Shown here in pieces: positions 414 through 12,724 of a DNA stretch of 64,000 nucleotides (the first letter of the stretch is position 1; every line of letters starts with the position of its first letter). Location: NCBI GenBank assembly GCA_949286705.1, contig CASEDF010000001.1:62001-126000 (forward strand), written 5' to 3'. The position numbers were made by a program, and so were the translations under genes. This DNA is from an uncultured bacterium (GTDB taxonomy: Bacteria; Cyanobacteriota; Vampirovibrionia; Gastranaerophilales; Gastranaerophilaceae). The notes below the pieces were generated by a model, which was not told where the DNA came from, searched no databases, and saw only the letters and a list, made by a program, of their open reading frames with translations.

Positions 414-449
414 GGACTATTTGTAAAATTAGTCCCTTTTTAGTCCCCT
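414..449. repeat. candidate integrase arm-type sites, left end
   Basis: The heptamer TAGTCCC occurs here as two direct copies about 10 bp apart, plus one inverted copy (GGGACTA at about 414-420). The pair AGTCCC-TTTTT-AGTCCC (431-447) recurs exactly at 12533-12549. Each copy is roughly 105-120 bp inside its att core. That spacing fits arm-type binding sites of a tyrosine integrase; this role is inferred. Confidence 0.5.
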
Positions 450-1194
450 AAACTTTATTATTTTGTTCTTTGTAAATTCTGGCATTTTCCCAGTCTTTAG
501 GTAACATTCTTAACCAATCTAATTTAATTTTGTCATTTTTTGCCTCTGCTACAAGATTTATTCCCATGAGTTTATCAGAACAAGTGATTTTTTCTTTGTA
601 TATTTCGCTAAGCATATAAGTTAAGTATCTATGCAATAAAAGCGAGAAATAAATCAAACTATCGCAAGTATCATACAATGTTTCAATTATACTTTTAACT
701 TTTATTATATGTATTTCTAAACAATTTATGGCTTTCTTTTCGTCATCCGTTAATGAGAAATTATCAAAAGTTAATATCGTATTGTTTAGTTTTTCTTCAT
801 ATTGTAAAACTTGATTTAAAGCACTCATAGCACCCTTGCTTGTATTAATCAAAAAGTCATAATCTTTAATGTTAACAGGTAATAACCATGAAGAAAATGG
901 ATATTTTTCAGTTGCTACAGTTAAATTTCCTATCTTTATTGCTTTGAGTTTTGGAATTAAAGTGTTGTCCCTGTAATCAATTAAAGCAGGTGCTTGCAAT
1001 TCAATTAAAGTATGCAATATTATTGCTTTATTAATGTTTATTTTATGTTGTTCCTTTTCTCGCCTTTTATCAGTTAGCCAAGCTCCAAAATACACTGCAC
1101 CAAAAGAAGCAATAGCCGTTATAAATGGTGTTGCCACCTGCCACAAGTTTATATTAGGAGTTGTTTTAGCCGTATTTAAAATAAAATCTAACAT
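448..1194 (-). CDS. hypothetical protein with one N-terminal membrane segment (element cargo)
   Basis: This 248-residue protein has a single predicted membrane segment near residues 19-41, then a basic KRREKEQH stop-transfer stretch and a long helical, probably cytoplasmic domain. I do not recognise the family. It is transcribed away from the two-gene membrane operon at 1327-4075, so the three genes share the AT-rich intergenic region 1195-1326. Its stop lies beside the repeated TAGTCCC motifs near the left att. The position at the element end, next to the integrase gene, is typical of cargo. Confidence 0.7.
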   Translation of the reverse strand: MLDFILNTAKTTPNINLWQVATPFITAIASFGAVYFGAWLTDKRREKEQHKININKAIILHTLIELQAPALIDYRDNTLIPKLKAIKIGNLTVATEKYPFSSWLLPVNIKDYDFLINTSKGAMSALNQVLQYEEKLNNTILTFDNFSLTDDEKKAINCLEIHIIKVKSIIETLYDTCDSLIYFSLLLHRYLTYMLSEIYKEKITCSDKLMGINLVAEAKNDKIKLDWLRMLPKDWENARIYKEQNNKV

Positions 1195-1326
1195 TAAAAC
1201 CTACTATACTTTATAGATTATAATACAAACTAACGAAAGTCATTTAATGTATTAATCCAATTTAATGATTAACACATTAAAGAAAAAACTATGTTTTTGC
1301 TATAATTAGATAGCAGGTGTGTAAAT

Positions 1327-1641
1327 ATGAATAATAAAATTACAGATTTAATATCCAGTATAAACAATAATAAAAAGAAATATATAGGATTATTCCTTTG
1401 GGATTTTTTATCAGAATTTTTAGCTGTGGTATGCTTTGTTATTACAGTTAAATTTATATACTTCTTAATCAGTTATTTAAACATAAATTATACTATGTTT
1501 TTTAACTTAGAAAAAATCCTTTATTGTTTTATTTTACTTTGGTTTTTTATTGCTGTTATTATTACAATAATTTTTCATTTTGTAACAATTTGCACAATTA
1601 ATAAAAACGGCAGAGGAATGTTAACAGAAAATGAAGAATAA
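1327..1641 (+). CDS. small two-helix membrane protein (cargo operon, gene 1)
   Basis: This 104-residue protein has two strongly hydrophobic segments (about residues 25-48 and 58-85) separated by a short polar loop. A Shine-Dalgarno-like AGGTG precedes the ATG, and a TATAAT box lies at 1301-1306. Its last codons overlap the start of the 814-residue gene by 11 bp, so the two are very probably co-translated. No family is recognised. Base composition is markedly more AT-rich than the chromosomal genes to the right. Confidence 0.7.
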   Translation: MNNKITDLISSINNNKKKYIGLFLWDFLSEFLAVVCFVITVKFIYFLISYLNINYTMFFNLEKILYCFILLWFFIAVIITIIFHFVTICTINKNGRGMLTENEE

Positions 1642-4075
1642 TTTAGAAATAAATATAAACGCTCTGTTTTGTAAAACTGTTATAAATTTAATTTATTTAT
1701 TGCTAGATACATTGTTAATTTCTAGTATTTTGACCGTAACTTATTATTTTCAATGGATTAAAATTAGCTTTCTGTCTATCTCAGTAATTATTATTCCTGT
1801 AATTATTTTTACTGAAATATTTCGTCAAAATACTGCTTTTAATAGAAGTGTCATAAATAATGTTTACAACTTTATTTATTATTTGTTTCAAGAACCATTT
1901 AGAATAACGAAACTAGTTAATAAAATACTAGATATTGCTACCGCCGGTTTATTTGTGTATTACTTTTCTATTTTATTACTTAATTTAGAGTCTTTAAGCA
2001 CTCAAAATCATCCAATATTTCAAGCTATAGGAATTGTAATTACAGTATCATCCATAGTATTAACTGTTTTATTCTCTACATTACAACAATTTGAAAATAA
2101 ATACTCTGATTTTAAATCAATACTACAACAATGGAAAACAACCAATATTTTTCTTTTTATATTGTTAGCAATATATACAACTACATCATTTATTTTTTAT
2201 TTTATTGGTTCAAATAAATATTTTGACATATTAATTCTTATTTCTTCAATCTACCTTGTTATAAAATTAATACTTATAGCTATTAATATATCTTTTATGA
2301 TGAATTTTGGAATCCTTTTGAAGATATACGAAAGGAATACTATAAAATTTATAAAAAGTTGGAATATAAGTAATGATAAAAATCTTGTAAATGAAATAAC
2401 ACAAAAAGGTGTAAAATATTTTATTAAATATAAAGTTTGGGGAATAAATAAAAAGAAACATTATACAATTTCAGAACAAACAATATCAGAATTACAAGGA
2501 CAGGTTGAACCTATTTTTAGGCTGGCTGAAAATTTTCTAAGAGAGAATAATTTAAACGATTTTTTAATATGTAATAAAGTAATTTATAATGTAGTTGCAA
2601 TATACGCCAAATTATACAATGATAGCTTGGAAACAAAATTCTATCAATTTCTAGCATATAAAATTAAAGATTTATATAGATTAGCTGTAAATTTAAAATA
2701 TCAATCATTTCCAGAACATTTAGTTGAATTGAATGAGCAATTAGGTTTATTTTCAATTAGAGAAAAGAAAGACCAAACTGATTTTAAGACAATACAGACG
2801 TTATCTTTTTATGCATTTAAGGATAATGCAAAAGAGTTTATTATAATGGCAATAAATTTAGAAAATACACCTGCATCAACTCTTGCTATAATTTCTTTTA
2901 GAAAGTTTATTCACAAACTTATTTTTAATCAATCCATAGATGAAGTTAGTGGATTAATTGATGATTTAAATACTATATCTTTTGGAATTTGGACATTAAA
3001 TAATACTAAAAAAGTAACTAATAATGCCTGGTGTATAACTCTTATTAGTTATATTATTACTGATATTATAAATATTTTTTATTATGTAGTAATGTATAAC
3101 TTGCAAGAATATATGTCAATAGACACTACTTATCTTGAAAATAAAATTAAACAAGCATTTGAAGATTCTTTTAAATTATTAACAACGTACAAAACATATC
3201 CTAGTGATTTTTCGATATTTTTTAATAATTTGGGAAGAGATTTAAATTTGAAATCGGTAACCGAAATATTAAAAAATTCTCCATATATAATGACACCTTA
3301 CAAAAATTCTGTGTACAATGGTTCTTCATTAATAACTCATTATGTAAATGCCTTAGACCAAGTTTATAATGCTATATTGGTGTATGATTTTGATACAAAT
3401 GTTGATTTTGTTAGAGGTTTGACTTGTTTATCTAATTTTCTTGATTTATTTGAAAAATCTACAAAAATATTGTTTGATAGTGGCAATAGTATCTGTGTAA
3501 ATAGAATATTAGAATCAATAACAAATATTCAGGAGTATGTCTTCTTATTTATTGAGAGAGTAAATGTAACTAATTATAAAAGAAAACAAATGATAGAAAT
3601 ATCAAGCATATTGTTAAAAAACTTATATTCTACGTTCTTAAATATCTTAAAAAATTATACCATTTCAGAAAATCACCAAAGTTACTATATAGAAGATTTG
3701 GTTAAATTTGTTTACTATTCTGTAAAAATGTATGCAACCACAAATGATAAAAACAAAAAACTAATTGAAGATTTAATCCAAAAATTATTTATTGATTTTG
3801 AACAACAAGATGTTTCCAAACGAAAAGACTTATACGACGGCATAAATTTAATAGCATTGCTTCTTTGTAAAACAGATAGGAATTCTAAAATTTTTAATAC
3901 TCTTTGTCAATTTTCAATAAAGTATAAACCTGACAAACAACAACGAAATAATAGTATATATATTGATTCTCTTGAAGAAAATAATATCCCTTCGTTTGCT
4001 AGATACTGGATTAACTATAATGATATAAAAGAATATCTTAATATTTTATTGAAATTTGAAAATAAGGAATCCTAA
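1631..4075 (+). CDS. large polytopic membrane protein with long helical C-terminal domain (cargo operon, gene 2)
   Basis: This 814-residue protein has about six hydrophobic segments in the first 230 residues (near 16-38, 46-62, 105-121, 133-152, 170-192, 198-225). The remaining 580 residues are a soluble-looking, Lys/Asn/Ile-rich helical region without any motif I can name. It overlaps the upstream small membrane gene and ends convergently with the integrase gene (4-bp overlap). The gene is extremely AT-rich, a sign of recent acquisition. Its place between att and int is where satellites and islands usually carry accessory or anti-phage genes; that role is only a guess. Confidence 0.75.
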   Translation: MKNNLEININALFCKTVINLIYLLLDTLLISSILTVTYYFQWIKISFLSISVIIIPVIIFTEIFRQNTAFNRSVINNVYNFIYYLFQEPFRITKLVNKILDIATAGLFVYYFSILLLNLESLSTQNHPIFQAIGIVITVSSIVLTVLFSTLQQFENKYSDFKSILQQWKTTNIFLFILLAIYTTTSFIFYFIGSNKYFDILILISSIYLVIKLILIAINISFMMNFGILLKIYERNTIKFIKSWNISNDKNLVNEITQKGVKYFIKYKVWGINKKKHYTISEQTISELQGQVEPIFRLAENFLRENNLNDFLICNKVIYNVVAIYAKLYNDSLETKFYQFLAYKIKDLYRLAVNLKYQSFPEHLVELNEQLGLFSIREKKDQTDFKTIQTLSFYAFKDNAKEFIIMAINLENTPASTLAIISFRKFIHKLIFNQSIDEVSGLIDDLNTISFGIWTLNNTKKVTNNAWCITLISYIITDIINIFYYVVMYNLQEYMSIDTTYLENKIKQAFEDSFKLLTTYKTYPSDFSIFFNNLGRDLNLKSVTEILKNSPYIMTPYKNSVYNGSSLITHYVNALDQVYNAILVYDFDTNVDFVRGLTCLSNFLDLFEKSTKILFDSGNSICVNRILESITNIQEYVFLFIERVNVTNYKRKQMIEISSILLKNLYSTFLNILKNYTISENHQSYYIEDLVKFVYYSVKMYATTNDKNKKLIEDLIQKLFIDFEQQDVSKRKDLYDGINLIALLLCKTDRNSKIFNTLCQFSIKYKPDKQQRNNSIYIDSLEENNIPSFARYWINYNDIKEYLNILLKFENKES

Positions 4076-5451
4076 ATATTTTTAACCTTCAATCCTGCAT
4101 AAAATTCATCCATTTTATTAGCAACCTGTGCTTCTTTTGATTTAATTATGTGAGAGTAAGTGTTCAGGGTTACATTTTTATCAGCGTGTCCGAGTCGACC
4201 GCTTACTGTTACAATATCCTCGCCTGATGAAATCAGCAGGCTTGCGTTTGTGTGGCGGAGTTGGTGGAATGTTATTTTCGGTAAGTTATGGCGGTTTAAG
4301 AATTTTGTAAACCACTTATAAGGAAGCTGTGTACTTATCGGCTTCCCATCCTCATGCAGGAATACATATTTGCCGTTTTGCCAAGCTGTACCAAATTTCA
4401 ACCTATTCTCATTCTGTTGCTTTTTGTATTCCTTCAATAGAGATATTACCGTTTTTGAGGCTGTAACAGTTCTTATTCCTGCTTCTGTTTTTGGTTTACC
4501 CTCAATATTGCCATAACCTGCAATATAGTGTCGTTGTTTATTGATATTCACTTCACAGGTATCAAAATTTATATCTTCCCACTTCAAGCCTGTAAGTTCG
4601 CCCTCTCTTAAACCGATATCTACTGCAAGATAAATCATTGTCATATACATTAATGGTTCACTTTTCAAGCAGTCCAGCATATCTGCCACCTGCTCATCAT
4701 TGTAATACTTAGCTTTTGTTTTTGTTGCTTTCTGTGGTTTGGCTCTTTCAGCAGGATTATTCATTAAGATGTTCCAATCTACAGCGGTTGAAAGTATTGA
4801 GTGAATTACAATGTGATGATTTTTGATTGTTTTTCGATTTAACTTCTTTTCTGAATTTCCCTTAAACATTCTGTTGAAGTCTAGTTTATAGCAATTACAG
4901 AGCTTTTGAGCGGTGCTATAGTTTGTTGCCTGTCCATTTTTTAGCCTTCTGCAAGTTTTAGATGATATGCCTGTAGTTTTGATTATGTGAGAAATTGTCA
5001 GAGGTTCAAGATATTTTATCAGGGCTTTGGTAGGGGTAAATCTGCCGTCAAGTCTTACTCCTTCTTCATCAAGATTGTTGTAAAACTGTATCAAATGATG
5101 AGGCTGTAATTTGCCGAGTTTAAGATGTCCGATAGCAGGCAAAATCCGTTTGAGCATGATTTTATATGATTGTAATGTCGTCAGTGTAAGATGTTTCTCT
5201 GCGTAATCCTCTAACCACCTTTGTGTAAATTCTTCAAATGTTATCTTTTCGCCGTCTAAGTAAACCCCGTTTAAGACTTCGTTTTCAAACATAACCATTT
5301 GACGGTTAAGCTCTTTTTCAGCCTGCTTAGCGGTTAATATTTCGTCTAGTTTAATTGTTTTTCTTTTGCGTAACTTTTTGCCTTTGGAGTCGTAACCCTG
5401 ACAAACTGTCAATCTATATGTATAATCTGAAACTTTTTCGTAAAATGCCAT
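4072..5451 (-). CDS. int: tyrosine integrase with an internal HTH-like insertion
   Basis: This 459-residue site-specific recombinase should catalyse integration and excision at tRNA-Ser. Catalytic residues visible in the C-terminal domain are R282 (GLREGE), K321, H396-x-x-R399 (HQLRH), H422 (LGH) and the nucleophile Y432. An AP2-like N-terminal arm-binding part precedes a core-binding domain. That domain is interrupted at about residues 146-195 by a helix-turn-helix-like insertion (TISHIIKTTGISSKTCRRLK). Such insertions are known in some Firmicutes element integrases. AAGGA lies 8 nt before the ATG. The gene reads toward the left att. Confidence 0.93.
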   Translation of the reverse strand: MAFYEKVSDYTYRLTVCQGYDSKGKKLRKRKTIKLDEILTAKQAEKELNRQMVMFENEVLNGVYLDGEKITFEEFTQRWLEDYAEKHLTLTTLQSYKIMLKRILPAIGHLKLGKLQPHHLIQFYNNLDEEGVRLDGRFTPTKALIKYLEPLTISHIIKTTGISSKTCRRLKNGQATNYSTAQKLCNCYKLDFNRMFKGNSEKKLNRKTIKNHHIVIHSILSTAVDWNILMNNPAERAKPQKATKTKAKYYNDEQVADMLDCLKSEPLMYMTMIYLAVDIGLREGELTGLKWEDINFDTCEVNINKQRHYIAGYGNIEGKPKTEAGIRTVTASKTVISLLKEYKKQQNENRLKFGTAWQNGKYVFLHEDGKPISTQLPYKWFTKFLNRHNLPKITFHQLRHTNASLLISSGEDIVTVSGRLGHADKNVTLNTYSHIIKSKEAQVANKMDEFYAGLKVKNI

Positions 5452-5564: not shown

Positions 5565-7664
5565 CTAACTTCCATAATAGACGAAGGACACTCCATTTTT
5601 AGCCTTTACCATTCGTCCATATCCTTTGCGTGCAAGCCCTTCCAAAGTAACCTGTGCTGTTTTAATATCTTTGATTTTAGTTTTATTATTGCGGAATAGC
5701 TCTGTCGGTGAAACTGTTTTTAAATTTTTACGCTTAAAAAAGTTCAATGCACATTCCTCTTTTTCATCATAATTAAGCTTATTGTCTGTAATTACTTCAA
5801 AACAGCTTTTAAAATAATTAAACAGTTTTATTGCATTATAAACATCAAAATATGTGGCAGATTTTTCTTCAAGATTGCGTATACAATGAAGTATTAATGT
5901 TAGGCGTGCGGTATAACGGGTTTGTTTCTCTAGATATGATTGTGTTATATCATCATATTTACCTGACCTTTTTAAGCATACTATTTTAGACCGGAATGTT
6001 TGAAAAAGTTTTTTTGCGTCATTATCAAGTTGGTAAATATTTATAGTTTCAGGATGTAATACAACATTTGAAAATATTTTTTGACAAATTTTGGTAAAAG
6101 CAGAAAGGTCATATTCTTCATCAGAATTGTATGAAATTCCAGTTTCCTTGTATTCACTACAGCAATATAGCCATCTTTCAATCATTCCGTTATAGCATTC
6201 TATACCTTTCCCGAAAAGAGTTTCATATAATACCTTAGGCTGAATTCCACCAACTATATTATGACTTGCGTCAAAAGTATAGTCTGATTTATCACTTTTA
6301 CGAACTATATTTTGCCGTTCCCTTGACCATGAAGCTAAGAAATATTCTTTATCATTCCCACCTCCACGTTTGTATTGATTCCAACTTTTTATAAATGCAG
6401 CTAATTCATCAACATATATTGCCAAACCTAGATGAAATTTACTATTTATATTCATAAGATAAGCTAATGTTTCTTTGGTTATATCCTGTGTCATTAAGCG
6501 GGGTTTCATAGGCTTTTCAGGTTCAATAGGTGATTCCATATTTTCTCCCTTTTTAATCGCCTCTTTGTATTTTTCCTTCTGTCGTTTATAATATTCTTTG
6601 TTACGATTATACTCATTTAATTCTGTTTCAAAATTTGTTGATAAAATTCGGTCATACTCATTTAGTATCTCTTTACCAATATTTAAACAAGGTGTTTTCT
6701 TTTGTGAAGGGTCTCCGATTATTGCCAACCATAAAATTGGATGTTCAATCCAATTTGTTCCAGGATTTACATTAATGGCATAATGTCCGTCCATAAGAAT
6801 ACTTGCTACTATAAGAAATGTGCAAGCTATATACTCTATAGGTGCATCCATTCGCTTATGCAGTTCTAGAATTAAATCTTTTACTGGTTCAGGGAATACT
6901 TCTACCGGAAACTCTGCAATTTCTTTCTTACCTGATAGTTTGTTTTGAATTTTTTCTAGTGTAATAAATTCTGCTTTATCAAGTAACTTTTGAAATTCAT
7001 CTGCCCCGTATGCAACTAAGAAGTCATCCAGTCCTTTTGCTTCACCTTTTGGTAAGAATATAAGTTTTACTTTAGCACCCTTTTCGCTTATAAGATAGCC
7101 AGCTAGTGAGTATAGAGCCTGTTTCACTTTTAGGTTGTGGTACATATCATTGTCATAGCATAGAATTACCACTTTATCTTCGAAATCAGCATGTACTAAA
7201 TCTGGTATGATGTCAGCCGTTAACTCCCATTCAGGATTTTCTTCTAAATCTATAGTGTCTGCTTTACATTTCCAACCCCATACTCCGCCAAGCGAAAGAC
7301 AAGGGAAACCTTCTTGTACTGCTTTAATAGCTTTTTTGTCACCCTCTGTTATTATTATAGGTTTTGTCGGGTCTTTTAACATTGAAATCGAAAGATGTAG
7401 AGGTCTAAAAATTTGCGATGGCTTGCCTGCCGGTTTTATGTACTTACCCTTACCATACTCAGGATTTTTTAACCGCCTGTTATAGTAATCCGTTTTGTAA
7501 TTTGCGTATAATGCAGGGTAATTTAATTGCCAGTAGTCATCCGTTTCAGAGAGATAACCTTTGTTCACATAATCCAAGATTGTTGATTTATTTATACCAC
7601 TTTTCTTGAAGTCTGCTAAAATAAATTTGTACTTACGCTTTAATTCGTCTAATGTTTTTGTCAT
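5565..7664 (-). CDS. primase/helicase-like replication protein (DUF3854 + DUF3987)
   Basis: This protein of about 699 residues has a TOPRIM-like DUF3854 region (motif IIITEGDKKA, LSLGGVWGW), then a DUF3987 region with a loop GDPSQKKTP where a Walker-type motif is expected. Such proteins replicate plasmids, satellites and integrative elements after excision. I start it at 7664 because AAGGA lies 9 nt upstream. The longer in-frame start at 7694 lies deeper in the upstream excisionase gene and lacks such a site. Either way the gene overlaps the 3' end of the HTH gene, which suggests coupled translation. Confidence 0.8.
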   Translation of the reverse strand: MTKTLDELKRKYKFILADFKKSGINKSTILDYVNKGYLSETDDYWQLNYPALYANYKTDYYNRRLKNPEYGKGKYIKPAGKPSQIFRPLHLSISMLKDPTKPIIITEGDKKAIKAVQEGFPCLSLGGVWGWKCKADTIDLEENPEWELTADIIPDLVHADFEDKVVILCYDNDMYHNLKVKQALYSLAGYLISEKGAKVKLIFLPKGEAKGLDDFLVAYGADEFQKLLDKAEFITLEKIQNKLSGKKEIAEFPVEVFPEPVKDLILELHKRMDAPIEYIACTFLIVASILMDGHYAINVNPGTNWIEHPILWLAIIGDPSQKKTPCLNIGKEILNEYDRILSTNFETELNEYNRNKEYYKRQKEKYKEAIKKGENMESPIEPEKPMKPRLMTQDITKETLAYLMNINSKFHLGLAIYVDELAAFIKSWNQYKRGGGNDKEYFLASWSRERQNIVRKSDKSDYTFDASHNIVGGIQPKVLYETLFGKGIECYNGMIERWLYCCSEYKETGISYNSDEEYDLSAFTKICQKIFSNVVLHPETINIYQLDNDAKKLFQTFRSKIVCLKRSGKYDDITQSYLEKQTRYTARLTLILHCIRNLEEKSATYFDVYNAIKLFNYFKSCFEVITDNKLNYDEKEECALNFFKRKNLKTVSPTELFRNNKTKIKDIKTAQVTLEGLARKGYGRMVKAKNGVSFVYYGS

Positions 7665-7866
7665 AATTTTCCATCCTTTCTTCTGTATCACCATTTTTTA
7701 AGTAATTAACTAAACTGTCGAGATTGAGCAAAAATTTTTTTCCGCTCTTTACATATTTAACCTTGCCTTGCAGCACTAACTGCCGAATGTGATATTTTGC
7801 TAACTTGACAATTTGTGCTGCTTCATTTATTGTTATCATGCAAGGGATGTCAATTTCTTTATTCAT
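7633..7866 (-). CDS. excisionase-type HTH DNA-binding protein
   Basis: This 77-residue protein matches the short excisionase/MerR-like fold: ITINEAAQIVKLAKYHIRQL followed by a basic wing (GKVKYVKSGKKFLLN) and SLVNYL. It probably acts as recombination directionality factor and/or regulator of the element. AAGGAG lies 8 nt before the ATG. It is first in a short operon with the primase gene, which overlaps its end by 32 bp. The family assignment is good; the Xis role is inferred from context. Confidence 0.8.
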   Translation of the reverse strand: MNKEIDIPCMITINEAAQIVKLAKYHIRQLVLQGKVKYVKSGKKFLLNLDSLVNYLKNGDTEERMENYDKNIRRIKA

Positions 7867-8192: not shown

Positions 8193-8516
8193 TTATTTCA
8201 ACGCCTTGTATATCCTGTAGAGGGTTTCAATGTCAACTTGTTCATCTCGAATAGCGTTGATTAATTCTTCTTTTAAGATTTCTTTTTCTTGCAGGTAGCC
8301 GAAGTTAAACAGTTCATCAATTCCAATATCAAGAGCCGTTAATAATTTGGCTAGTGTTTCAGCGGAAACAAAGGCATTACCTCTTTCAATTTTGGATAGT
8401 GTTCTCTGTCCTATGTTGAGCTTTTCCGTAAGCTGCTCCTGTGTAAGACCTTTTCCTGTCCTTAATTCTTTAATCCGTTGTCCTAATAATTTTTTTATTT
8501 CTAGATTATTTCCCAT
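8193..8516 (-). CDS. XRE-family repressor of the element
   Basis: This 107-residue protein has an N-terminal HTH_3 domain (residues 10-64: LGQRIKELRTGKGLTQEQLT ... GQRTLSKIERGNAFVS). A C-terminal helical tail of about 40 residues follows. It is divergent from the uracil-DNA glycosylase gene across 165 bp that includes a 10-bp perfect palindrome. By position it is probably the master repressor, comparable to Stl of phage-inducible islands, but no target is proven. Confidence 0.85.
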   Translation of the reverse strand: MGNNLEIKKLLGQRIKELRTGKGLTQEQLTEKLNIGQRTLSKIERGNAFVSAETLAKLLTALDIGIDELFNFGYLQEKEILKEELINAIRDEQVDIETLYRIYKALK

Positions 8517-8681: not shown

Positions 8682-9425
8682 ATGGAAGCACTGAAAGAAA
8701 TATTGATTAAAAATGAATGGTTCACAAGGCAGGAAGTAGAAGAACTTTTTACATCTGAAATTCAGGAGTGTATCAACGAACGCACAAGACCAAGTCAAAG
8801 CGATATATTCAACGCATTTGACGGATTAAGACCGCAAGATGTTAAAGTGTTGATTATCGGACAAGACCCTTATCCTGATGAGGCAAAAGCTCATGGGCTT
8901 GCATTTTCTTACAATAATGGTGAAATTCTTGCAGAGGATTCATTATTAAATATCTTCCGCAAAATCAAGGAAGATGTTGGAATTGAAAACCGTTATACCA
9001 ATTTGTCAGCTTGGAAAAAGCAGGGTGTTTTATTGCTCAATACTACCTTAACCTTTGCACCTGATAATCAGGACTTCCATATAAAAGCGTGGAATAATTT
9101 TATAAATCGGGTAATATCTAAACTTCTTGAAGTTAAGACCGAGAATAAACAACCTTTAGTCGTCATGTTATGGGGTGATAAGGCAAATAAATTGGAAGTT
9201 CTAGCTTATAAAAAAGGCAAATATCGAGTGGATTATCAAGAAAAATATCCATTTGTTAAAATCTTGCGTTCTTCTCATCCGTCAAATAACTATCAGGCTT
9301 GTACTAAGTCTATTTGTGATGGCGAAGTTCCTGCTTTTAAGGATACTGATTTTAGACCTTTCAAAGAATGCAACGAATTTTTAGAGGTTAATAATGCTGA
9401 TATAATCAACTGGCATACAGCTTAA
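8682..9425 (+). CDS. family 1-like uracil-DNA glycosylase carried by the element
   Basis: This 247-residue protein removes uracil from DNA if active. The catalytic motif GQDPYP is at 60-65 with D62, and the uracil-binding LLLNTTLT follows around 117-124. The usual HPSPLS minor-groove motif is changed to SHPSNNYQ (H199-P200-S201 kept, the Leu intercalation loop altered). The AGAAAGGAAG Shine-Dalgarno is close to the ATG. It is the only plus-strand gene in the right part of the element and ends at a strong terminator. UDG on a satellite could protect its own DNA, or attack uracil-containing phage DNA; both are speculative. Confidence 0.88.
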   Translation: MEALKEILIKNEWFTRQEVEELFTSEIQECINERTRPSQSDIFNAFDGLRPQDVKVLIIGQDPYPDEAKAHGLAFSYNNGEILAEDSLLNIFRKIKEDVGIENRYTNLSAWKKQGVLLLNTTLTFAPDNQDFHIKAWNNFINRVISKLLEVKTENKQPLVVMLWGDKANKLEVLAYKKGKYRVDYQEKYPFVKILRSSHPSNNYQACTKSICDGEVPAFKDTDFRPFKECNEFLEVNNADIINWHTA

Positions 9426-9431
9426 AATATG

Positions 9432-9465
9432 TGAAAAGGCTCCATTTTAGGAGCCTTTAAGTTTT
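9432..9465. terminator. bidirectional Rho-independent terminator
   Basis: The hairpin AAAGGCTCC-ATTTT-AGGAGCCTTT is followed by T-rich sequence on the right and A-rich on the left. It lies between the convergent UDG gene and the HTH gene and overlaps the stop region of the latter. Confidence 0.8.
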
Positions 9466-9879
9466 ATTTATGATTTTGTTTCTTTGGATGTATTCTTTAC
9501 CGCTCGGCATTTCTAAGTACATAAATTTGTACAGGTAATTTGATGAATACACCAGATTGAATTTTTCTTTTTCATCTTCATTTTCCAGTAATTTTAATAG
9601 CCGTTCAACATCTCTTTTACAAACAGGAATTTTTTGTACAAGCTGTGTTCCCTCATATTGCCAGTAGGGAATATTATCAATCCTTGCAATTTCGACCTTA
9701 TCAAGGTTTGCCTTTTTGACTAAATCTTTTCTATTATCTACTCCGTACTTTTGATATAGGGAATTCACCCTGCTGTCGCAGGTGCGAAGCGGTTCATTTA
9801 ACTTTCGGCTTATTTCCGCATAGCTTAAGTTTTCTTTCAAGCCCTGCAATATAGTTAGTTCATCTTTTGTTAAGTACAT
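9457..9879 (-). CDS. LuxR/sigma4-type HTH protein
   Basis: This protein has about 140 residues when started at 9879, where GGAGGT lies 5 nt upstream. The N-terminal 50 residues form a GerE-like HTH (TKDELTILQGLKENLSYAEI then SRKLNEPLRTCDSRV). The C-terminal half (LVQKIPVCKRDVERLLKLL and beyond) is unknown. It is the last gene of the minus-strand cluster that also holds the DnaB-like ATPase. Likely a regulator of element replication genes or of late functions; target unknown. Confidence 0.65.
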   Translation of the reverse strand: MYLTKDELTILQGLKENLSYAEISRKLNEPLRTCDSRVNSLYQKYGVDNRKDLVKKANLDKVEIARIDNIPYWQYEGTQLVQKIPVCKRDVERLLKLLENEDEKEKFNLVYSSNYLYKFMYLEMPSGKEYIQRNKIINKT

Positions 9880-9975
9880 TTTTACCTCCAAATAATTTTC
9901 TATTCTTAACTGTAGGTTTTTACCCACTTTAGCTTACAACTGCCTTTATTCTGTCTCTTAAAAAGATTTTTAATT

Positions 9976-10662
9976 TTATGTTCCGATTTTTCCAGTTTTT
10001 CTATTAAATTTCAATTTGATTGAATTATTTTCAGGTTTCGCCTGAATTATCTCTATGATATTTCTTCTATCGTCAGGAATGTCACAGTTGTAATAATCTT
10101 CCCGATAGAGCAATAAGACCACATCCGAATATTTCACAAGATTTTTATCTCGTAAATCTGTAAATTTTGGATAATAGTTTGTTGTGTTGCGAGGTTCCCT
10201 GCGTGTATTTGCTATTACAAAGATTATTAAATTATTCTGCTCTGATATTTCCCTCAATTTTTCAGAACTTAGTCTATTCCTGCTGTTAATATGTATGTTG
10301 ATGAACAAATAATCAGGTTTGTAGTTCTGTATTATTTGTTTGATATTTTTTATCCTGCAAAATTCTGTAGATTTTATAAACAAATTCCAACTGCTTAGTT
10401 CTTTTACTGCTTGCGTGAAATTTTCTGTTTGTATCTCTAAACTTTCCTGCCTGTTTGGATTTGCAACTATTTTTAATAACATTTCTGTAATTATTTGTTT
10501 ATTGTAATCTGTTACATACAAGCATTTATAACCTTCTTTACAGAATAGTTCAACTAAATTCAAAGCAAATGTTCTTTTACCCATAGCAGGACGACCGCCT
10601 ATTGTAATCAGTGAACCTTTTGCATGATATTGTAAGATTTTCTTTAATTCTTCTTTGTTCAT
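9976..10662 (-). CDS. small DnaB-like RecA-fold ATPase
   Basis: This 228-residue protein corresponds to the C-terminal ATPase domain of DnaB-type helicases without the N-terminal domain. Walker A is GGRPAMGKRT (residues 22-31), the Walker B-like strand is PDYLFINIH, and an RREPR motif follows further on. It may act as a replicative helicase or a helicase-loader-like factor for the element. AGAGGT precedes the ATG. It is in line with the upstream methyltransferase-like gene (40-bp gap). The Arg replacing the usual Ser/Thr-Thr pair after Walker A Lys (GKR-T) is a small deviation. Confidence 0.7.
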   Translation of the reverse strand: MNKEELKKILQYHAKGSLITIGGRPAMGKRTFALNLVELFCKEGYKCLYVTDYNKQIITEMLLKIVANPNRQESLEIQTENFTQAVKELSSWNLFIKSTEFCRIKNIKQIIQNYKPDYLFINIHINSRNRLSSEKLREISEQNNLIIFVIANTRREPRNTTNYYPKFTDLRDKNLVKYSDVVLLLYREDYYNCDIPDDRRNIIEIIQAKPENNSIKLKFNRKTGKIGT

Positions 10663-10701: not shown

Positions 10702-11346
10702 CTATAACTTTTCAAAAATAAAAATATTCTTAAAGGTAGCTACATTAAATCCGCTCTTTAAGGCTCTACAATGCCATAAGGCTTTTGCTGTACTAGATTC
10801 AAGAGTTGACCATTTCCAAACTTCTTTAACTATGTGAGCTTTTAAACGCAATCCATGACTTGTAAGAAATTGAGCATATTCAAAAGCTTCAAGGTGCAAA
10901 GTTGAATTTGAATATGTATTACCGATTATTAAAACGACAAATCGACCTTGCTCCAGGCTATCTATGCCTAATTTTGCAAATTGTTTGAATGTGTTGAAAA
11001 ATTCTTCTGTCTTACTTGCTCTAATATCAGTTACATCAGGAGTGAGTAATAATAGCTGAATATTCTTTTGCTCAAGTTCTTTTAATTTATTATTGACTAC
11101 ATCACGCAAAGAATTATCATATTCGTAATCTTCTATCTCAAGATATTTTCTATCTAGCTTTTTTGCTTCTTCTTTTGCGGATTCAGAATTACAGAATATA
11201 TTCAGAACTAAATCATTTCTTTTAGTGTATCTTTTATAAATTTGCTCATAAGTATTAACTTCATACTCCCAGAAAGAGTTAGTTTTGATTTCAGGATAAT
11301 TTTTCCAATTTTTTAAATCAATTTCATTGTAACCTGTTGTATTCAT
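10702..11346 (-). CDS. decayed DNA-methyltransferase-fold protein
   Basis: This 214-residue protein keeps the pattern of N4/N6 DNA methyltransferases (PF01555 type) but has lost the key residues. The motif I-like stretch LVLNIFCNSE (46-55) sits where LDPFxGSGT is expected, followed by AKKLDRKYLEIE as in active enzymes. The motif IV position, LLTPDVTD (100-107), lacks D/N-PP-Y. A later strand FVVLIIGNTY and the C-terminal IFIFEKL also fit. It is probably catalytically dead, perhaps a DNA-binding or SAM-independent relic. GGAGG precedes the ATG. Confidence 0.5.
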   Translation of the reverse strand: MNTTGYNEIDLKNWKNYPEIKTNSFWEYEVNTYEQIYKRYTKRNDLVLNIFCNSESAKEEAKKLDRKYLEIEDYEYDNSLRDVVNNKLKELEQKNIQLLLLTPDVTDIRASKTEEFFNTFKQFAKLGIDSLEQGRFVVLIIGNTYSNSTLHLEAFEYAQFLTSHGLRLKAHIVKEVWKWSTLESSTAKALWHCRALKSGFNVATFKNIFIFEKL

Positions 11347-11355
11347 ATTTCCTCC

Positions 11356-11724
11356 TTAACTTCTAATAATGTCGTAACCCATATTTTTAGCCTTTTGTCG
11401 GGCTTCAAATATGTTGTGTGCTTCAATAGTAATTTCTTCCTGCCTTGCGTATTTATCACCCCTGACACGCACTAACATATTGTATTCGTTAGTATCTTTA
11501 TGATGATATTCAGGCGGTTGAGTACGAGAAATAAAACTATTGTCAAATTGCGGACTATCGTAAGTTTGCTGATTGCAGGAATAATTATTATTCCAATCGT
11601 CGTTGTAATCATAATCATCTTCCTCATAGTAATCGTCACTATAACCGCCTAATCGCTTTTTAGCTTCTTCAATAAAGCCGTTGATAAAAATGTAGATTAC
11701 TAAAGCTATTGCTAACCATTTCAT
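11356..11724 (-). CDS. small membrane-anchored protein of the element
   Basis: This protein has about 122 residues from the ATG at 11724 (AAGGA 9 nt upstream). It has one N-terminal membrane segment (LAIALVIYIFINGF), a very acidic Asp/Glu/Tyr-rich stretch, and a C-terminal domain ending in EARQKAKNMGYDIIRS. Function unknown. Its upstream region is a near copy of the region upstream of the OB-fold gene, so both are likely under common control. Confidence 0.6.
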   Translation of the reverse strand: MKWLAIALVIYIFINGFIEEAKKRLGGYSDDYYEEDDYDYNDDWNNNYSCNQQTYDSPQFDNSFISRTQPPEYHHKDTNEYNMLVRVRGDKYARQEEITIEAHNIFEARQKAKNMGYDIIRS

Positions 11725-11757
11725 AAAATTGTTTCCTTTCTGTGTTCTTGAGTACAC

Positions 11758-11869: not shown

Positions 11870-12196
11870 TTATTTTGCTAATTTGACATTTTGCATAATT
11901 ATTGGAGTTTGAGGCTCTTCCCTATCTATGAACTTTTCTCCTGTAATAATAACTTGATTGTTAATCTGTAATAATTTATCGAACTTTTTTATTTCTCTGT
12001 CAAAACAAACACAATCTATTGTACCTGTTTCGTCTTCAAGCGTTATAAAGCGTATGAATTTATATGGATTAGATTTTGTTGGTATTTGAATTGTTGAAGT
12101 AATGGTTCCGCAGATTGAAATTTCAGTACGAGACTTATCTTTCAGCAATTCATTGTTTGATAATTCTTTAACTTGATTACATTTTAATAATTTCAT
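11870..12196 (-). CDS. OB-fold nucleic-acid-binding protein
   Basis: This 108-residue protein consists almost entirely of one OB fold of the tRNA_anti / DnaE C-terminal type: ISICGTITSTIQ, FIRFITLEDETGTIDCVCFD, then VIITGEKF. It probably binds single-stranded DNA during element replication, next to the primase and DnaB-like proteins. AAGGA lies 10 nt before the ATG. It is the first gene at the right end of the element and has its own copy of the repeated promoter module. Confidence 0.7.
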   Translation of the reverse strand: MKLLKCNQVKELSNNELLKDKSRTEISICGTITSTIQIPTKSNPYKFIRFITLEDETGTIDCVCFDREIKKFDKLLQINNQVIITGEKFIDREEPQTPIIMQNVKLAK

Positions 12197-12634: not shown

Positions 12635-12724
12635 TGGAGGAGGAGGTGGGATTCGAACCCACGGAACGCGTGAACGTTCGACAGTTTTCAAGACTGCTCC
12701 AATCAACCGCTCTGGCACTCCTCC
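12635..12724 (-). tRNA. tRNA-Ser(UGA)
   Basis: The minus strand reads GGAGGAGTGCCAGAGCGGTT at the 5' end and has a long variable arm. The anticodon loop CTTGAAA contains TGA, and the T arm is GTGGG-TTCGAAT-CCCAC. The 3' end is encoded as discriminator T plus CCA. The duplicated copy at the left att has TTA there instead, so the CCA appears to come from the element. It is the integration target. Confidence 0.95.
12638..12658. repeat. att site, right copy inside tRNA-Ser
   Basis: These 21 bp are identical to 293-313. They include the 3' acceptor strand and part of the T arm of the functional tRNA-Ser gene. Confidence 0.88.

Follow-up and report, generated by a model that had tools for sequence, protein, structure and literature searches.

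Pseudoenzymes of the methyltransferase fold that pair with an active paralogue have been described in eukaryotes. METTL14 and DNMT3L belong to this kind, as does the ciliate protein MTA9. Neither the catalytic nor the SAM residues of MTA9 are conserved, and its heterodimer with the active paralogue MTA1 has been solved (PMC9174199). We analysed a window of 64,000 nucleotides from a gut bacterium, meaning the whole stretch of DNA under study, that carries a comparable gene, whose product we call the pseudo-methyltransferase (pMT). pMT resembles MTA9 in having a methyltransferase fold in which catalytic and SAM residues are not conserved. On the other hand, MTA9 is part of a eukaryotic system, whereas pMT lies on a bacterial mobile element, combines deletions with substitutions and has a putative partner. 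Two further properties of the MTA9, METTL14 and DNMT3L kind were found for pMT: an intact paralogue in the same cell, here the core methyltransferase in the seven carriers, and purifying selection despite a dead site.

The closest relative is this core methyltransferase of the Gastranaerophilales (PF01555; PDLC03351). It shares with pMT homology over the full length, the N-terminal segment and an LWxxRALxxGF tail. The core enzyme is near-universal and has its SAM and catalytic motifs; pMT has lost them and is mobile and rare. Relatives in viral contigs (L111-L113) and in a restriction-modification-like locus (L178) belong to the same methyltransferase family, but their motifs are intact and they are more distant (62-85 bits). 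Within the terms used, no bacterial or mobile-element pseudo-methyltransferase of this kind was found in titles and abstract openings of the open-access literature. In the present case a mobile element carries an apparently inactivated version, maintained under selection, of the core methyltransferase that nearly all of its potential hosts own.

Lost motifs and predicted fold of pMT

The gene and its translation signal are as follows:

10702-11346, minus strand: pseudo-methyltransferase (pMT), 214 aa, ATG start; open reading frame with a full-length match to the host core methyltransferase, motifs lost
11351-11356, minus strand: AGGAGG ribosome-binding site of pMT, four bases before the ATG; read from the sequence

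The original prediction described a methyltransferase without catalytic and SAM motifs. Homology bears this out, since pMT residues 1-213 match the host methyltransferase end to end (31% identity, E 2e-36) and the PADLOC profile MTase_II (PDLC03351) matches at E 7.2e-24; the conserved stretches that had been quoted are present in the frame as stated, with FCNSE at the FxGxG position. Matches to PHROGs are weak. The comparison with PF01555 enzymes held in part: PF01555 matches pMT weakly and below its cut-off (E 1.7e-4, 22 bits versus 26.7; 17.5 for the relative L097), but pMT is most closely related to the core methyltransferases of the order itself, in which the motif order (I before IV) is unlike that of the PF01555 profile.

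At the motif I position pMT reads NIFCNSES. The SAM-binding FxGxG is replaced by FCNSE or FGNSK in the two pMT clades, compared to FFGSG in the core enzymes, and the position of the second glycine drifts, being occupied by E or K depending on the clade. At the motif IV position pMT reads LLTPDV, in agreement with the reported absence of D/NPPY; instead of (D/N/S/H)PPY, TPDV or NPDF is found and the loop after this position is deleted. In an alignment with 53 core methyltransferases, both pMT and a 65%-identical relative have lost motif III, PPY with the loop behind it and the glycines of motif I (G124 and G126 in the host row of the alignment). The HGHSNEYHGNYIP loop of the host enzyme, N-terminal to motif I, is mostly deleted in pMT. 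This deletion is visible only with a homologue and for that reason escaped the first reading of the sequence. The motif II glutamate is retained. Altogether pMT is shorter than the core enzyme by about 55 internal residues. Three in-frame deletions of about 17, 26 and 11 residues are common to all seven known copies, and the deleted stretches comprise most of the HGHSNEYHGNYIP loop, the residues that follow motif II up to and including motif III, and those of the loop behind PPY.

An AlphaFold2 model of pMT shows a Rossmann methyltransferase fold (pTM 0.74, mean pLDDT 71), which the intact relatives in the underlying alignment may have favoured. The similarity to methyltransferases that had been anticipated was seen in VIA-align, where the best match has a Z of 13.5 (rmsd 3.6, 150 aligned residues) and the 50 matches shown, at Z of at least 11.4, are mostly SAM methyltransferases. 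The top structural matches are mostly RNA and small-molecule methyltransferases; DNA methyltransferases are represented among the structural matches by, for example, M.BseCI and M.TaqI, and there is no CcrM-type enzyme among the matches shown. An intact viral relative, modelled with a pTM of 0.68, has an alpha helix and a strand, beta-3, that are missing from pMT. Beta-3 lies at the edge of the classical methyltransferase sheet, and its loss would for this reason be tolerated by the fold. The pMT model falls below pLDDT 50 at residues 1-7, 23-25, 107-111 and 178-202.

The mobile element and the distribution of pMT

A 21-bp exact direct repeat bounds about 12.3 kb around pMT, and one copy lies inside a tRNA gene. 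The features of this element are:

293-313, no strand: distal attachment repeat; repeat match
4072-5451, minus strand: putative tyrosine-recombinase-type integrase; open reading frame, HxLRH...GH...Y by reading
5565-7694, minus strand: DUF3854/DUF3987 replication-type protein; PF13148 E 2.5e-48, PF12965 E 2.1e-20, PHROG DNA helicase E 2e-33
7633-7866, minus strand: excisionase-like HTH_17 protein; PF12728 E 1.2e-6, PHROG excisionase matches
8193-8516, minus strand: Xre-family repressor-like protein; PF01381 E 5e-14
8682-9425, plus strand: uracil-DNA-glycosylase-like protein, divergent gene; PF03167 E 9.9e-12, NCBIfam ung E 2.5e-40, below its cut-off
9457-9927, minus strand: LuxR/sigma-like helix-turn-helix protein; PF00196 E 9.8e-5, just below cut-off
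9976-10662, minus strand: DnaB-like helicase/ATPase domain protein, directly downstream of pMT; PF03796 E 9e-20
11356-11757, minus strand: small protein, hydrophobic near its N terminus (by reading), gene adjoining pMT on the upstream side; open reading frame, nucleotide collinearity
11870-12196, minus strand: OB-fold nucleic-acid-binding protein; PF01336 E 5.2e-9
12638-12658, no strand: attachment repeat inside tRNA-Ser(TGA) (12635-12724, minus strand); 21-bp exact repeat of 293-313, tRNA

Matching repeat pairs are present in three related loci (L094, L096, L099); in three others (L093, L095, L103) the tRNA copy alone was found within the fetched stretch. These computed features suggest that the element is mobile. 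The DnaB-like gene is 60-100% identical in ten elements, our own included. Five of these carry pMT and five show its clean collinear absence. Thus, pMT is a removable accessory gene of a tRNA-Ser-integrated Gastranaerophilales element. A packaging role, which had also been proposed, finds no support and was set aside: no capsid, terminase or portal gene was recognised among nine element reading frames searched with Pfam and eight with PHROGs, a set that covers genes other than the integrase and those at 448-4075.

Of those three genes beyond the integrase, with products of 248, 104 and 814 aa, only the first has counterparts in L094 and L096, and none has a PADLOC match; the region looks like a variable cargo slot. 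The uracil-DNA-glycosylase-like gene is conserved in related elements (45-93% identity outside the window) and is unusual cargo for a replicating element.

Seven of the 383 genomes sampled from the order carry pMT (E <= 1e-24), and the same seven were recovered among 288 family genomes; six of the copies are catalogued in Candidatus Gastranaerophilales MAGs. Three copies are nucleotide-identical in three genera, two others show 96% protein identity and the last two 64-65%. Four pMTs were placed in a tree, one of which stands for the remaining three, whose proteins are the same. They group as a single clade with full support (100/100), but on a very long branch that does not fix its place among the core enzymes. 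In two genomes, G201 and G249, near-identical pMTs adjoin tRNA-Ser and tRNA-Gly and the DnaB-like gene is missing. No attachment pair was found around either copy and these loci may therefore be element remnants. Within one genus, a 1.1-kb pMT block (L097 9072-10203, L098 7160-8292) is 95% identical and sits at tRNA-Ser in one locus and at tRNA-Gly in the other.

Scans of viral contigs with the window protein and with a pMT alignment found no relative at the sensitivity used. Intermediate forms were sought in 24 selected genomes, namely 21 that had given extra matches and G138, G201 and G249; no further pMT was among the matches listed. The other strong matches are long methyltransferase frames or a frame split across two contigs (G034), and there are three weak ones. 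Two extra copies were inspected: that of G215 is an intact enzyme in a restriction-modification-like locus, and a DPPY-type methyltransferase lies at the place of the weak match in G023.

The host core methyltransferase and the possible role of pMT

The genome that carries pMT also encodes an intact full-length methyltransferase (L005 10173-11108) with FFGSGT and HPPY, whose E-values are 2e-84 for PDLC03351 and 1.9e-21 for PF01555. In a search of 288 family genomes (Candidatus Gastranaerophilales, a sample of a larger group), this core enzyme was present in 280, as a single match per genome except in G034, G118, G214 and G215, and GSGT...HPPY is found in all 53 loci examined. All seven pMT carriers have it, which is uninformative because nearly every genome does. 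Among ten neighbours of the L005 gene, PADLOC returned one match, a weak ATPase (mads_8, E 3.6e-7), and no restriction enzyme, and for this reason the enzyme looks solitary at this locus. Its substrate would be DNA, judging from its families (PF01555, PADLOC type II) and the locus of the G215 relative. Among solved structures, the fold closest to that of an intact relative belongs to Trm11, a tRNA methyltransferase.

In 10 of 15 loci (L005 10173-13941 and L144-L157, 14 of them chosen by hand plus L005), the core gene is divergent beside mutL or one gene off. It may be connected with mismatch repair or with replication. In G215 (L178 3022-6603), an intact relative of the core enzyme is accompanied by a D12 DNA methyltransferase, an EVE-domain protein and a protein of the IceA family, IceA being an NlaIII-like endonuclease; the locus is apparently a restriction-modification system. 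HPPY is present in this relative and in all three viral ones, with GSGT (L112, L178), GGGT (L111) or GCGT (L113) at motif I. In two of the three viral relatives (L111 4580-5416, L113 3544-4340) the homologous region is interrupted by one in-frame TAA; these genes may be in decay, have a later start or reflect misassembly.

The original prediction proposed a new, non-enzymatic role for pMT. This is the most likely outcome, because a methyltransferase fold without its motifs has been kept by selection in a mobile element. We infer from the motif loss that pMT does not carry out methyl transfer, and less firmly that the core methyltransferase is its partner and the effect inhibitory. The reading that we tentatively favour is that the element encodes pMT as a pseudoenzyme that targets the core methyltransferase of its host, either as a partner in a mixed complex or as a decoy. 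In this model the pMT lineage would derive from that of the core methyltransferase of the host order. Loss of the loops that form the SAM and catalytic sites and of edge strand beta-3 would have made it a pseudoenzyme that still folds as a methyltransferase-like scaffold. It would then bind the core enzyme in a mixed complex or compete with it, and methylation of the element or the cell would be damped or redirected during element replication.

A kept scaffold with lost ligand-binding loops fits a protein-partner role better than an enzyme, and the core methyltransferase leads as the partner because it is the closest relative of pMT in the cell. In a comparison that took in two pMTs, these scored 107-139 bits against all 53 core enzymes, above the restriction-modification-type relative (85) and the viral ones (62-78; of these three, one is truncated). 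When pMT is divided into eleven blocks, residues 1-20 rank second in identity to the host enzyme (50%); host-like yet outside the confidently predicted fold, they might be an interaction segment. Against this reading, no sign of co-evolution was seen, as the three genera with identical pMTs have core methyltransferases up to 18% different from that of the window's host, and pMT is less constrained than its neighbours. If pMT does act on the core enzyme, mobile elements can steer a host epigenome via subunit mimicry, and pMT offers a handle on the job of the core enzyme in this order. A more specific version is possible but doubtful: by analogy with DNMT3L, METTL14 and MTA9, the element may have captured the host's near-universal solitary DNA methyltransferase as a dominant-negative or redirecting subunit that switches host methylation during replication.

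Rather unlikely, though the first alternative to be weighed, is that pMT binds DNA without altering it, at the recognition site of its parent or at the element origin, as a site shield or as an accessory replication or regulatory factor. This corresponds to the original proposal of DNA recognition once packaging is set aside. pMT sits among replication-type genes (DnaB-like, OB-fold, DUF3987), and its relatives have net charges of +4 to +9, with +7 and +9 for the 65% relatives; the window protein, however, has a net charge of 0. In such enzymes the loop after PPY is part of the nucleic-acid side, and it is deleted in pMT. Moreover, pMT is dispensable in five of the ten related elements and has a different context in G201 and G249, where the DnaB-like gene is missing, and is therefore no core replication part.

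The same distribution bears on the idea that pMT is a scaffold or partner of another element protein, the DnaB-like ATPase or the small upstream protein, in a function unrelated to methylation. Both neighbours lie on the strand of pMT, 39 bp and 9 bp away. Yet they persist without pMT in five elements, and pMT persists without the DnaB-like gene in two genomes, which makes this explanation unlikely. Some methyltransferase or SAM-binding activity through an unusual route is highly improbable: the motif II glutamate is still there, but the motif I glycines, motif III and PPY are missing, together with the loop that follows PPY and the greater part of the HGNYIP loop.

Selection on pMT

The dN/dS of pMT is 0.30 between the window copy and both G077 and G107, and 0.21 and 0.22 between the window copy or G077 and G201, at a dS of about 1.0 and 35% protein divergence. 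The G201-G249 pair gives 0.39, a value resting on four differences. Neighbouring element genes have a dN/dS of 0.04-0.20 versus 0.30 for pMT in the close comparison, in which the constraint on pMT is somewhat weaker. Neutral simulations with the observed 167 differences (213 codons) gave 6 stops and a protein identity of 51% on average; 0.1% of runs were stop-free, and the observed 65% identity was reached in none of 5000 (maximum 60%). Conservation of the intact frame, as first proposed, is thus upheld by a dN/dS of about 0.21 and by the neutral runs, which together argue that pMT is no decaying pseudogene. That pMT is a functionless remnant has the slightest chance of all: every catalytic motif is lost, the dN/dS is somewhat above that of the neighbours and the G201 and G249 copies may sit in element remnants, but five comparisons all fall within 0.21-0.39, the 167 differences left no stop codon, just one residue of gap separates the two clades, the gene is nucleotide-identical in three genera and the ribosome-binding site is intact. 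Of the residues invariant in the core enzymes, pMT keeps 50 of 98 at scaffold positions compared to 10 of 49 at motif positions (Fisher p = 4e-4).
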